In this document: positions 49,341 to 53,719 of the stretch, piece after piece
Position numbering within the stretch: the first letter of the stretch is position 1
How the letters are laid out: each line of letters starts with the position of its first letter
From: Nitrospira sp. CR1.1
GTDB taxonomy: Bacteria > Nitrospirota > Nitrospiria > Nitrospirales > Nitrospiraceae
NCBI GenBank assembly: GCA_014055465.1
Contig: WIAF01000006.1
Span: 62,001 to 126,000 of the forward strand
Direction: 5' to 3'
Length of the DNA stretch: 64,000 nucleotides
The notes under the pieces: model-generated
Database searches by the model: none
Seen by the model: the letters and a program-made list of their open reading frames with translations, nothing else
Told to the model about the DNA's origin: nothing
Translations under genes and position numbers: made by a program

Positions 49341-49440
49341 CCGGCACTCCGAAATAATCAGAATGCCAAAGGGTTAGGCTCTGAGAGAGGACATTGTACG
49401 AGGGGGAAAGATTGAGATGCAAGAGTGGGAAATAGGAACG
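49341..49440. repeat. direct repeat, copy 1
   Basis: CCGGCACTCCGAAATAATCA, then GAATGCCAAAGGGTTAGGCT and GATGCAAGAGTGGGAA, repeated at 50220-50318. It lies between the upstream end of the radical-SAM gene and the toxin gene. Confidence 0.8.
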
Positions 49441-49449
49441 TGGCGGGGT

Positions 49450-49704
49450 CTAACGAATCAATTTGTCATACTCTGAATGAGTCCCGATCCAGAACCAGAC
49501 GATGCCGTCCGCTGCTTCAACTCCGACCGCTCGATACTGAAGCCCTGCACGCGCAGACCAAAACCGGCCTACTTGCTTAAAATGCAACGACGGATGCCGA
49601 GGGTTAGCCTTTAACAATTCAAAGGCGCGGTCGGCTTGTTCGCGGATCGAAGCAGGGAGGGCGTCGTAGCAAGCCCAAAACTCTGGTGAGGTGTGGTGAT
49701 TCAA
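49450..49704 (-). CDS. RelE/ParE-like toxin-type protein
   Basis: An 84-residue protein with the RelE/ParE fold signature: MNHHTSPEFWACYDALPASIREQADRAFELL, helix pair, then FKQVGRFWSARAGLQYRAVGVE and the final WFWIGTHSEYDKL. RelE-like proteins cleave mRNA on the ribosome and ParE-like proteins inhibit gyrase; which applies is unknown. Its ATG overlaps the stop of the antitoxin-type gene (ATGA), so translation is coupled. Confidence 0.8.
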   Translation of the reverse strand: MNHHTSPEFWACYDALPASIREQADRAFELLKANPRHPSLHFKQVGRFWSARAGLQYRAVGVEAADGIVWFWIGTHSEYDKLIR

Positions 49705-49907
49705 AACGGCTTCGACTGGCCGGAGGTATGAGACCGAAGCGCTTGTTCAGCGAGGGCATCGAGTTTACCGGCCTTCACATCAGCCTCGAACTGACGATCC
49801 CATGCCTCTGCATCAAATGCCGCATACCATCGGCGAAACGCGGCGAGTTCGTCAGAGGAAAGCTTTTCGATCTGCTGCTCAATGGCTTCCACTTTGCTCA
49901 TGATCAC
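49701..49907 (-). CDS. antitoxin-type protein
   Basis: A 68-residue protein: KVEAIEQQIEKLSSDELAAFRRWYAAFDAEAWDRQFEADVKAGKLDALAEQAL. This matches the small helical antitoxins paired with RelE/ParE toxins, with an N-terminal amphipathic helix and the AWDRQ motif. The second residue of an MIMSK start gives an alternative start two codons in. It is encoded just upstream of the toxin with overlapping stop and start. Confidence 0.82.
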   Translation of the reverse strand: MIMSKVEAIEQQIEKLSSDELAAFRRWYAAFDAEAWDRQFEADVKAGKLDALAEQALRSHTSGQSKPF

Positions 49908-50219: not shown

Positions 50220-50318
50220 CCGGCACTCCGAAACAGTCAGAATGCCAAGGGATTAGCTTGAAGAACGACATTGTAAGGGGGGAAAAGATGGAGATGCAAG
50301 AGTGGGAGGGAAGGAACG
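50220..50318. repeat. direct repeat, copy 2
   Basis: CGGCACTCCGAAACAGTCAG, then AATGCCAAGGGATTAGC and GATGCAAGAGTGGGAGG. It parallels 49341-49440, in the same orientation, on the other side of the three-gene cassette. Confidence 0.8.
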
Positions 50319-50839
50319 GCCGGTCACCCTTCTTGCTCGCAGAACGCGCACGGTGAAACGGTGCTCGTCCCATGCGCGCAGTTGAAGGGCAATCCGGCCA
50401 TTCCTGGTGAGAGTGAATGGACAGCGCAAAGCGCGGTCGCAGGCACTCCTCATTGGACGCGCGGACTGCGAGACCAATCAGGCTCCCTACCCTAAAGGAA
50501 AACAAGCGAGCTTGGCATGACCATGGGAGTATGGGCAGAGACGCAAGACCCCATCCCCCGCTCATCCGTTATGGTCCTCTACACCCTATGTCAGGCAACG
50601 GCTATAAATTACGGTTGATTTCCTAGACCGTAAGGCGTAGGAAATGGCGCGACAATTTTCACACCCATGCTATTGTTGACACCATTTCTGATCCAACAAT
50701 TCAGCCTGTGGATATCCGACTTTACTTACAGTACACTTGCTGCAGTCAAAGGGCCAACTGCGCATCAGTTGACACGTGACACGACGCTGATTAGAGCGCG
50801 AAGTATCTTCAACCATCTGTTTGGTGAGGGAACACTGTC
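50319..50839. other. 521 bp gap with no recognised gene
   Basis: I see no gene. Short open frames with no family features occur on both strands. A promoter-like TTGACA (about 50677) lies about 160 bp before the HEPN operon, but its -10 box is weak. GC content falls toward the right. Confidence 0.4.
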
Positions 50840-51388
50840 ATGGGAAAAGCCAAACCGTCCGACATCGTGGGGAAGATAGTTGACCTCCTAACCCCGCTTT
50901 CATCTGACGAGAGGCGGCGCGTGGTTTCTGCATCTCTGACCCTACTCGGCGAAACCACAAACGCGGGTAGCGATAGAGAAACTGAGGACGGCGGAACAAT
51001 TACCACGTCAGGAAAGGCCAAAACCTGGCAGAAGCATAACAACATCACGGCTAATCAGCTCGGCCAAGTGTTCCATTGCGAGGACGGCAGAGTCGACGTG
51101 ATTGTCGGAGAAATGCCAGGAAAGAATAAGAAAGAAAAAACGCTCAACGCATATGTCCTAGCTGGAATCGCACAGCTGTTGATCAGTGGCGAGGCGAAAT
51201 TCACTGACAAAGACGCGCGCGCTTTGTGTTCATCGGTCGGCTGCTACGACGCCCCCAATCATGCTACGACGTTGAGGGCCAAGGGCAATTGGTTCACCGG
51301 ATCGAAGGATAAGGGGTGGATCTTAACAGCCCCGGGCTTGAAACACGCCGCCACGTTAGTCAAAAACCTTTCGCCTGAGCAGGCATGA
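50840..51388 (+). CDS. hypothetical partner protein of HEPN-type operon
   Basis: A 182-residue protein. Residues 1-40 are helical (PSDIVGKIVDLLTPLSSDERRRVVSASLTLLGE). A charged glycine/threonine-rich linker follows, then a second helical region from about 65 to 90. Residues 100-180 resemble a winged-helix-like module (AYVLAGIAQLLISGEAKFTD ... NHATTLRAKGNWFTGSKDKG, then ILTAPGLKHAATLV). No catalytic residues are evident. The stop overlaps the next ATG (ATGA), giving coupling, so the two proteins probably act together. I do not recognise a named family. Confidence 0.75.
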   Translation: MGKAKPSDIVGKIVDLLTPLSSDERRRVVSASLTLLGETTNAGSDRETEDGGTITTSGKAKTWQKHNNITANQLGQVFHCEDGRVDVIVGEMPGKNKKEKTLNAYVLAGIAQLLISGEAKFTDKDARALCSSVGCYDAPNHATTLRAKGNWFTGSKDKGWILTAPGLKHAATLVKNLSPEQA

Positions 51389-52164
51389 TCGACTCAGCGA
51401 AGTTGCTCGCTGGAATTCCTGCAGGCCTGCGCGATCCTCTGATCATGAGCTTTCAGGAGATCGCTGCAAACTATGCCGAGCACCGCTGGGAGCCTGCAGA
51501 GCTCAATGGCGGGAAGCTCTGCGAGGTGGTGTTCACGATCATCGATGGAGTTCTGAAAGGCGCATTTGCGGCAAAACCGTCCAAGCCCGCAAACATGGTT
51601 GATTCGTGTCGAGCGTTGGAGAAGATACCCCCCTCAGCATCACGCGTAGGCGACAGGTCTCTAAGAGTACTCATCCCGAGAATGCTGACCGCGCTCTATG
51701 AGATCAGAAACAATCGAAATGTTGGCCATCTAGGTGGCGACGTTGATCCAAACTATCTCGATGCCACTGCTGTGCTAAGTATGTCGAGCTGGGTGGTAGC
51801 TGAACTCGTGCGGGTATTTCACAATGTGTCTACGAAAGAGGCACAAGAATCGGTTGATGCGTTGATCGAGCGTAAACTCCCTGTGATTTGGGAAGTCGGC
51901 TCTGTTCGACGTGTTCTCGACTCCGAAATGCCAGCGCGGGACCAAGCCCTCCTTCTACTATACCAGAAGCCTAGCTGGGTTAGCGAAAAGGACCTCACAA
52001 GTTGGGTTGAGTACAGTTCGCTAGCCATGTTTCGCACAAGAGTTCTTCGCCCGCTGCATTCTGCAAGGCTCATCGAGCATGACAACGTTTCGGGTACAGC
52101 CCGAATCTCGCCGAAAGGAGCCAGAGAAGTCGAAGAACGAGTCCTACAGTCACGCAAGTCGTAG
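51385..52164 (+). CDS. HEPN-motif protein with winged-helix-like C-terminus
   Basis: A 259-residue protein. Residues about 95-150 hold RMLTALYEIRNNRNVGHLGG, i.e. Arg108-Asn109...His115, which fits the HEPN ribonuclease motif RNx4-6H within a helical segment. A downstream helix follows (LSMSSWVVAELVRVFHNVS). Residues about 185-255 look like a winged-helix module (DQALLLLYQKPSWVSEKDLTS, then LRPLHSARLIEHDN and ISPKGAREVEERV). HEPN nucleases are common in toxin-antitoxin and phage-defence systems. Encoded in coupled operon with the previous gene. Function is inferred. Confidence 0.75.
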   Translation: MIDSAKLLAGIPAGLRDPLIMSFQEIAANYAEHRWEPAELNGGKLCEVVFTIIDGVLKGAFAAKPSKPANMVDSCRALEKIPPSASRVGDRSLRVLIPRMLTALYEIRNNRNVGHLGGDVDPNYLDATAVLSMSSWVVAELVRVFHNVSTKEAQESVDALIERKLPVIWEVGSVRRVLDSEMPARDQALLLLYQKPSWVSEKDLTSWVEYSSLAMFRTRVLRPLHSARLIEHDNVSGTARISPKGAREVEERVLQSRKS

Positions 52165-52352
52165 GGCCTTGGAAGAAAAGTGGGCGGGAGCCTTTGCTCA
52201 TTGCGGAAAAGGTGTCATACCCCATTTCCCGACGCGCGGTGCTCAGAGGCATAGGCCCACAAAGCTTGAAGGGAGTCTTTTCTCGACACGTCACTGGGAC
52301 TTGCCCTTACACCAAGGAGGGACTCTAGACCGCATTTGACTTTCCGCCTTTT

Positions 52353-52376
52353 AAGGATTTCCTGGAGACAATCCTT
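52353..52376 (+). promoter_or_regulatory. hairpin enclosing the ribosome site of the next gene
   Basis: AAGGATT (52353-52359) and AATCCTT (52370-52376) are perfect arms around a 10 nt loop TCCTGGAGAC. The loop contains the only GGAG before ATG 52377. Pairing could hinder initiation. Confidence 0.5.
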
Positions 52377-53276
52377 ATGACAACAAGATCAGATCGCAAG
52401 TATGTTATTTGGGCGAGCCGGATTTTAACAGCCTTCCTCATGAACCTACTTATGCTATCAGGCTCCTCCTCTTCGAATGACACTTCGCCAACTGAAAGGT
52501 TGATGACAAGCAAGTCGCTGCTGGAGATAGTATCAATACAACCAACAAAAGCGCAGCCAACCGTTGGGTCCGGATTGGGGTTCATAGTCCAGGTGAAAAA
52601 TCAATCCGAAGAAACCGTATTTATTACCTGGGACACTACTGTGCTAGTCGTCCCACCCGAACTCTTATACCCGTTCGCTCAACGGACTGATGTCTGGCAT
52701 GCTACTTTTGCGACTGAGCTCAAACATTCGCCTAATGAAACAATCGGAATAAAGCCGGGTGATTCCTATATTCTATTTTGGACTCCTTCGCCCCCAGAAA
52801 TAGAAAATATGGCCACATCGGCAGGAGTATTTAGTACTCTCAAAGTAATCATCACGGAGGTTGGATTTCTCTTTTTCTCCCCCGCCAATTACGAGGTCAG
52901 TGTAATCATTAAGCAGTGGACGAATGCCAAAGAGGTAGGAGGGGATAATTATCGGCTTGTAACCAAGAGCGCTAGCATCCCCGTCGCGGCCCCAAATATC
53001 GTGATCATGATAGGAGCGGCCATAGGAGGAATTCTTGCCTTCTATTGGCTTCGTGTCTCAAAGAAAGATGGAGAGGGTATACCTATTACCGCTCTTGCAA
53101 CTTCCGGCACTTTTCTGAGATGCATATTACTTGCAGTAATTGTCACCATTCTTCTTTCCAGAATCGCAGATACAAAGTTTTTCATTCAGATCACGGTAAA
53201 CGATGTTTGGGGGGCAATAGCAATGGGATTTCTAGCAAACCTCCTCGGGACAAAGTTATTAGAAAAGCTTTTGTAA
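52377..53276 (+). CDS. AT-rich membrane protein of unknown function
   Basis: A 299-residue protein. A first hydrophobic segment (about 9-30) is followed by an extracytoplasmic beta-rich domain (45-200) with VGSGLGFIVQVKNQSEETV, then three membrane helices near residues 205-222, 240-260 and 275-298 (VWGAIAMGFLANLLGTKLL). The domain recalls Ig-like or channel-accessory proteins, but I do not recognise the family. The base composition and codon use are markedly more AT-rich than the core genes. This suggests recent acquisition. Next to the HEPN pair and the RAYT remnant. Confidence 0.7.
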   Translation: MTTRSDRKYVIWASRILTAFLMNLLMLSGSSSSNDTSPTERLMTSKSLLEIVSIQPTKAQPTVGSGLGFIVQVKNQSEETVFITWDTTVLVVPPELLYPFAQRTDVWHATFATELKHSPNETIGIKPGDSYILFWTPSPPEIENMATSAGVFSTLKVIITEVGFLFFSPANYEVSVIIKQWTNAKEVGGDNYRLVTKSASIPVAAPNIVIMIGAAIGGILAFYWLRVSKKDGEGIPITALATSGTFLRCILLAVIVTILLSRIADTKFFIQITVNDVWGAIAMGFLANLLGTKLLEKLL

Positions 53277-53395
53277 GCTCCCCCGCACAGAGAAAAAAAG
53301 GGGGCGGGAATCTGACAGGATCACGCCGGGGGACAAGAAAAGGGGTCGGGAGTCTTTTCTTGACAGGATCGCGCCGAATCGGTACAAGATCGCCC

Positions 53396-53719
53396 ATGCC
53401 ACGCCGTCCACGGCTCGCAGCCGGAGACCTCGCCTATCACGTCCTGAATCGTCGCGTGGGACGCTTGGCTTTATTCGACAAGCCCTCTGACTACGCCGCG
53501 TTCGAAACGATTCTCGCCGAAGCCAACGCTCAGACCCGCATTCGCATCGCCGCCTACTGCCTGATGCCGAATCACTGGCACCTCCTCCTCTGGCCTCGCC
53601 AGGATGAAGAACTCTCCGAGGTGCTCCGCTGGATGACCATCACCTACACACAACGCTGGCATGCCCACCGTAGAAGGGGTCAGGTCTTGCAATCATACAT
53701 TTTCACGTCCGGCGAATAA
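53396..53719 (+). pseudogene. REP-associated tyrosine transposase, 5' fragment
   Basis: The 107-residue product begins MPRRPRLAAGDLAYHVLNR and includes LMPNHWHLLLWPRQDEELSE, the HxH site of Y1 transposases, followed by LRWMTITYTQRWHAHRR. At that point (about 53675) homology stops and a short foreign tail follows. The catalytic tyrosine and the rest of the domain are missing, so it is truncated and presumed inactive. Short direct repeats GACAGGATCACGCCG and GACAGGATCGCGCCG (53317-53331 and 53361-53375) lie just before it. Confidence 0.82.

Follow-up and report, generated by a model that had tools for sequence, protein, structure and literature searches.

HEPN ribonucleases such as AbiJ, AbiF, RNase LS and Csm6 (Anantharaman 2013, PMC3710099) share an all-helical domain in which an arginine ends helix 3 and a histidine lies in the loop before helix 4, the two being spaced as Rx4-6H with a polar residue after the arginine (PMC3710099). 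A conserved upstream acidic residue, an operonic partner and restriction-gene neighbours recur among them (PMC3710099). Pairs of the HEPN-MNT type (HepT/MntA) have the partner gene first and the HEPN gene second, the order typical of toxin–antitoxin (TA) pairs (PMC3710099). In Table 1 of the same survey, fusions to a winged helix-turn-helix domain are given solely for two other HEPN families, EC042_2821 and MTES_1575 (PMC3710099). HEPN domains that have lost catalysis serve in binding or regulation, a role proposed for MtlR (PMC3710099). HEPN effectors also occur in small antiphage units, namely AbiV/SaV (title of PDB entry 9bj6) and Tha, a phage-activated HEPN RNase that combines an N-terminal sensor region and an Rx4H motif in a single protein (PMC11087260).

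Two overlapping genes of Nitrospira sp. CR1.1, found in a stretch of 64,000 nucleotides (the window), resemble the HEPN RNases in their predicted helical domain, the placement of the R-polar-x-H motif, a candidate for the upstream acidic residue, the operonic partner and the restriction genes that adjoin related loci. The module differs from the named HEPN families in giving no significant profile match, in a C-terminal MarR-type winged helix of its own and in having winged-helix partners of several classes. The partner gene comes first, as in HEPN-MNT pairs, but encodes a winged-helix protein; Tha is a single protein, unlike this two-gene module, and no sequence match to AbiV was found. The best reading is that gene 2 represents a new subfamily of HEPN RNases with a MarR-type winged helix.

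Scans of both proteins against Pfam, PADLOC, NCBIfam and PHROG returned nothing significant, and HEPN family profiles gave no significant sequence match. Abi_C (PF14355), the only HEPN-like Pfam model to match, shares the R-x6-H spacing and a similar surrounding stretch; its match reached E 0.11 in two of 15 family members, was below the curated cut-off in all and was absent for the window protein. Profile–profile comparisons of the family with Abi_C, DUF4145 and HepT were not significant and their alignments were small, although the alignment with Abi_C falls exactly on the motif, and the Abi_C sequences that were fetched have the same spacing. Neither gene 1 nor any of the ten further partner-type proteins that were scanned matched a nucleotidyltransferase, the partner that an HEPN-MNT pair would have. 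The literature searched, which lay largely outside subscription journals, held no description of the pair.

The gene pair and its islet

Both open reading frames were found exactly where the earlier note had placed them (Table 1), and their overlap as ATGA suggests translational coupling. The stretch that holds the pair has a G+C content of 0.53-0.55, whereas much of the window is at about 0.58-0.60. To the left lie radical-SAM genes of the genus core, the nearest of which was present in 11 of 11 congeners searched, with 88-95% protein identity. In nine of these sister genomes, aligned with blastn, this neighbour is retained (82-90% DNA identity), the alignment ends at or before ~50483 and there is no similarity from there to ~53677. 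With no alignable islet in these nine sisters, the pair is either a recent accessory insertion or an islet that was lost locally. The description of the region in the earlier note as an accessory islet of lower G+C content thus agrees with both composition and synteny. Promoter and terminator scans yielded no signal that beat shuffled sequences and could be assigned to the operon, the Rfam scan gave no match, and no tRNA was found at the compared loci.

Table 1. Features of the gene pair and its islet, in window coordinates (AF2, AlphaFold2).
Feature	Position	Strand	Basis and remarks
Accessory islet	50484..53640		blastn against syntenic regions; not present in nine sister genomes; uncertain on the right side
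Gene 1 (partner, class A)	50840..51388	+	ORF, 182 aa; helical hairpin, linker and C-terminal winged helix; AF2 mean pLDDT 78
Helical hairpin, N-terminus of gene 1, residues 6-35	50855..50944	+	AF2; motif common to class B partners
PadR/MarR-like winged helix, gene 1, residues 97-177	51128..51370	+	AF2, high confidence; VIA-align Z about 7
ATGA stop/start overlap of genes 1 and 2	51385..51388	+	Sequence; comparable overlaps in L001, L003 and L009
Gene 2 (HEPN-like domain and C-terminal winged helix)	51385..52164	+	ORF, 259 aa; 14 further full-length relatives; AF2 mean pLDDT 80.5
Predicted HEPN-like four-helix domain, gene 2, residues 13-146	51421..51822	+	AF2, helices 13-31, 42-58, 90-108 and 122-146
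Codon of the invariant acidic residue E47 (helix 2)	51523..51525	+	Alignment, 15/15
R-N-x5-H (Rx6H) motif, R108-N109-N110-R111-N112-V113-G114-H115	51706..51729	+	Alignment of 15; R111 and H115 invariant; codons R108 51706-51708, H115 51727-51729
MarR-type winged helix, gene 2, about residues 184-253	51934..52143	+	VIA-align and weak profile matches to MepR

Further elements were observed around the pair. A predicted ORF of 299 aa (52377-53276) with hydrophobic segments and no Pfam or NCBIfam match adjoins it, and on the right side of the islet lies a fragment of an IS200-like (Y1) transposase, probably truncated (53045-53719). Upstream, in the same variable stretch, direct repeats of ~88 bases that are about 90% alike (49341-49430 and 50220-50307) flank a ParE-like toxin gene (Pfam; 49450-49704, minus strand) and a likely antitoxin gene (49701-49907, minus strand). 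In seven of the nine sister genomes the radical-SAM gene ends with just one copy, a place that both repeats match.

Predicted folds and conserved residues

The AlphaFold2 model of gene 2, built with four relatives, contains a HEPN-like four-helix arrangement, in keeping with the HEPN fold that had been anticipated around residues 95-150. In this prediction helix 3 ends with R108, and the loop leading to helix 4 (residues 109-121) contains H115, as in the HEPN four-helix core; the active-site part of the loop (residues 112-119) has a pLDDT under 50. Foldseek retrieved the HEPN domain of sacsin (3o10; probability 0.75-0.84), Csm6 (6tug) and AbiV (9bj6), weak matches (E near 1) that are compatible with a HEPN fold rather than proof of one. 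The VIA-align list for the whole model was filled by winged-helix matches and held no HEPN structures, and a viral structure library gave nothing notable beyond winged-helix matches.

Besides the HEPN-like domain, gene 2 carries in this model a MarR-type winged helix of its own, which matches MarR-family structures with VIA-align Z scores of up to 10.7 over ~75 residues. The winged helix was also the sole match when the PDB sequences were searched with the family profile (E 0.03); Pfam gave no MarR match for the window protein, and one relative matches MarR at E 0.01. No MarR match spans the whole protein, the structural match being confined to the winged helix. The model of gene 1 begins with the helical hairpin, which a disordered linker joins to a small helix/hairpin part and the winged helix; the relatives of gene 1 in L001, L002 and L032 are 36-48% identical to it. 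A match of gene 1 to MATCAP (E 0.013) was below the cut-off and was disregarded. The models support the winged-helix-like parts that had been read earlier from the letters, placing one at the C-terminus of each protein.

The window protein was aligned with its 14 further full-length relatives. Eight residues (E47, R111, H115, D126, W136, E140, R143 and G245) are invariant in all 15 proteins, at identities down to 21%. Position 109 is Asn or Ser throughout, and R108 is retained in 13 proteins and replaced by Ala in L007 and L008, so that the strictly invariant pair is R111-x3-H115 rather than R108 and H115. Gene 2 itself conforms to Rx4-6H with a polar residue after the arginine, at the x6 spacing. 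In the Ex3[KR] pattern that HEPN proteins typically show at their second acidic residue, Lys or Arg follows E47 at +4 in six of 15 proteins, and the window protein has Thr there. Shuffled versions of the gene 2 protein contain Rx4-6H in 74% of cases and R[NDHS]x3-5H in 22%; the motif alone is therefore weak evidence, and it is conservation across relatives that lifts it above chance. The residues R108-N109 and H115 singled out in the earlier note were correctly identified and form a conserved feature across the 15 proteins; H115 is invariant, as are R111 and E47, whereas R108 is not.

Distribution, partners and neighbourhood

The relatives come from Methylobacterium and one more genome of its phylum, a Phormidesmis-like cyanobacterium and three more genomes of the cyanobacterial phylum, two actinobacterial MAGs and one more genome of that phylum, four other Nitrospirota genomes and the haloarchaeal plasmid PL131 of Natronomonas pharaonis (L010). 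A HEPN-like gene cut by the contig end is also present beside a serine recombinase on a phage or phage-like contig (L032). Occurrence is patchy, in about 1% of genomes or fewer, across Nitrospirota, Cyanobacteria, Pseudomonadota, Actinomycetota, a haloarchaeal plasmid and a phage contig. Searches with tblastn gave no match among phages and one among plasmids, PL131. In a tree of the HEPN-like proteins, those closest to the window protein come from Pseudomonadota and Cyanobacteria rather than from its own phylum. Class C groups with a class B pair, and class B itself is split between two distant places, both arrangements resting on partly weak branches. The module is mobile, and the disagreement of this tree with phylum and partner class points to its horizontal transfer and to exchange of its partners.

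A small partner gene lies directly upstream of the HEPN-like gene in 13 of 13 other bacterial loci and on the phage contig, usually overlapping it or within a few bases. Two small overlapping genes with the partner first, the arrangement of the type II TA pairs that serve as a working analogy, are present in the window, and the partner is upstream at every other bacterial locus. At least six partner classes surround the constant HEPN-like protein, sometimes two or three in one operon; class A comprises the window, L001, L002 and L032, class B L003, L004, L009 and L027, and class F L007 and L008. Classes A and B are clearly related (hhalign score of 33.9 over 145 columns, where the best of 20 shuffles reached 17.9). 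For classes C, D and E the resemblance to A or B is confined to the winged-helix part, the comparisons B-C, B-D and A-E exceeding all shuffles, and hhalign linked class F to none of the others. Partners of class E have an additional zinc ribbon, L032 has class C and class A genes in tandem upstream of the HEPN-like gene, and in L007 and L008 two further small genes of related build surround the pair. PL131 has no upstream partner.

Since the partners differ in class from locus to locus, what stays constant in the module is the HEPN-like protein. The pair is therefore conserved as a unit in that a partner precedes the HEPN-like gene at all other bacterial loci, while the class of that partner varies. 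The earlier reading of the pair is corrected in this respect, gene 1 being one exchangeable option among the partner classes.

Two observations concern individual loci. On PL131, a short ORF downstream of the HEPN-like gene (L010, 4883-5131) looks by eye like the N-terminal part of partners in classes C, D and F0, and an ISH6-type insertion sequence comes directly after it; the ORF is possibly a broken partner gene or remnant. In L094 (5435-8639) and L026 (5333-8626), two genomes of one phylum, versions of the module that are only distantly related (classes A and D) occupy the same place in the same orientation, ~55-60 bases from the 3' end of lepA (recognised by eye), where tRNA is absent; the 3' side of lepA is a possible insertion hot spot.

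Pfam matches identified defence and toxin genes next to several copies. In L027 (4518-11072) the module is nested within a type I restriction system, flanked by hsdS and hsdR and read from the other strand; L007 adjoins Mrr and L008 adjoins GmrSD. The neighbours in L006 are a D12 DNA adenine methylase and a possible nucleotidyltransferase, that in L023 is a TIR protein and that in L009 a PIN toxin, and two tandem, near-identical MNT-HepT fusion genes lie directly downstream of the module in a cyanobacterium (L002, 5926-7987). As a control, 129 neighbouring proteins and 138 taken from randomly chosen regions of these genomes were scanned against PADLOC (E 1e-12), with ORFs called by a simple rule. 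The neighbours matched 149 models and the control 25; since the models are redundant in both sets and the control regions have defence matches of their own (Argonaute, type IIG restriction and candidate systems among the top 25 matches listed), no significance is claimed and the link to defence is at most suggestive.

Interpretation of the module

We favour gene 2 as the effector, an HEPN RNase, of a two-gene module resembling TA or abortive-infection systems, with a probability of roughly 0.55. By analogy with these systems, gene 1 would be made first, from the overlapping upstream gene, and would probably bind gene 2 through its helical hairpin and winged helix and keep it inactive; it may also serve as a sensor or operator-binding subunit. 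The trigger would be displacement or degradation of the partner, or its engagement by a nucleic acid or protein of an invader. Gene 2, once freed, would act as a metal-independent RNase (H115 with R108/R111 and E47) that cuts RNA and stops growth.

The main rival, which we consider rather unlikely, is that the HEPN-like domain is non-catalytic and that gene 2 is a regulator which binds DNA by its winged helix and RNA, protein or a ligand by its helical domain, the pair forming a transcriptional regulatory complex. Winged helices in both proteins would suit such a complex, as would the loss of R108 in L007 and L008 and the precedent of HEPN domains that act without catalysis (PMC3710099). The invariance of E47, R111 and H115 in 15 highly divergent proteins, however, is more readily explained by an active site than by a scaffold for binding, and no constant target gene stands next to the pair across the loci.

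A defence system proper, rather than an addictive TA pair, in which the winged helices of both proteins would directly sense foreign DNA or RNA and so activate the RNase, appears a little less probable again: exchange of partners around a constant effector suits exchange of sensors, and the restriction-gene neighbours and the copy on a phage contig point the same way, but the PADLOC enrichment is unclear against the matched control. That the pair is a selfish module stabilizing mobile elements by addiction, with defence incidental, seems improbable. Its patchy occurrence, its presence on a plasmid beside an insertion sequence and on a phage contig, and the ParE-like toxin gene upstream would all suit such a module, yet most copies found lie on chromosomal contigs and have no plasmid or integration genes in the stretch read.

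If the favoured effector reading is correct, the known HEPN effectors would gain a subfamily of RNases that carry a MarR-type winged helix themselves, range from bacteria to a haloarchaeal plasmid and have no entry in the searched libraries (Pfam, NCBIfam, PADLOC and PHROG). More tentatively, the family could be a modular immune or toxin device, in which one HEPN-winged-helix RNase is combined with interchangeable winged-helix sensor or antitoxin subunits and the trigger is changed by a swap of partner. A constant effector with exchangeable partners would then be a natural system in which to examine how one toxin is specified by its sensors or antitoxins.
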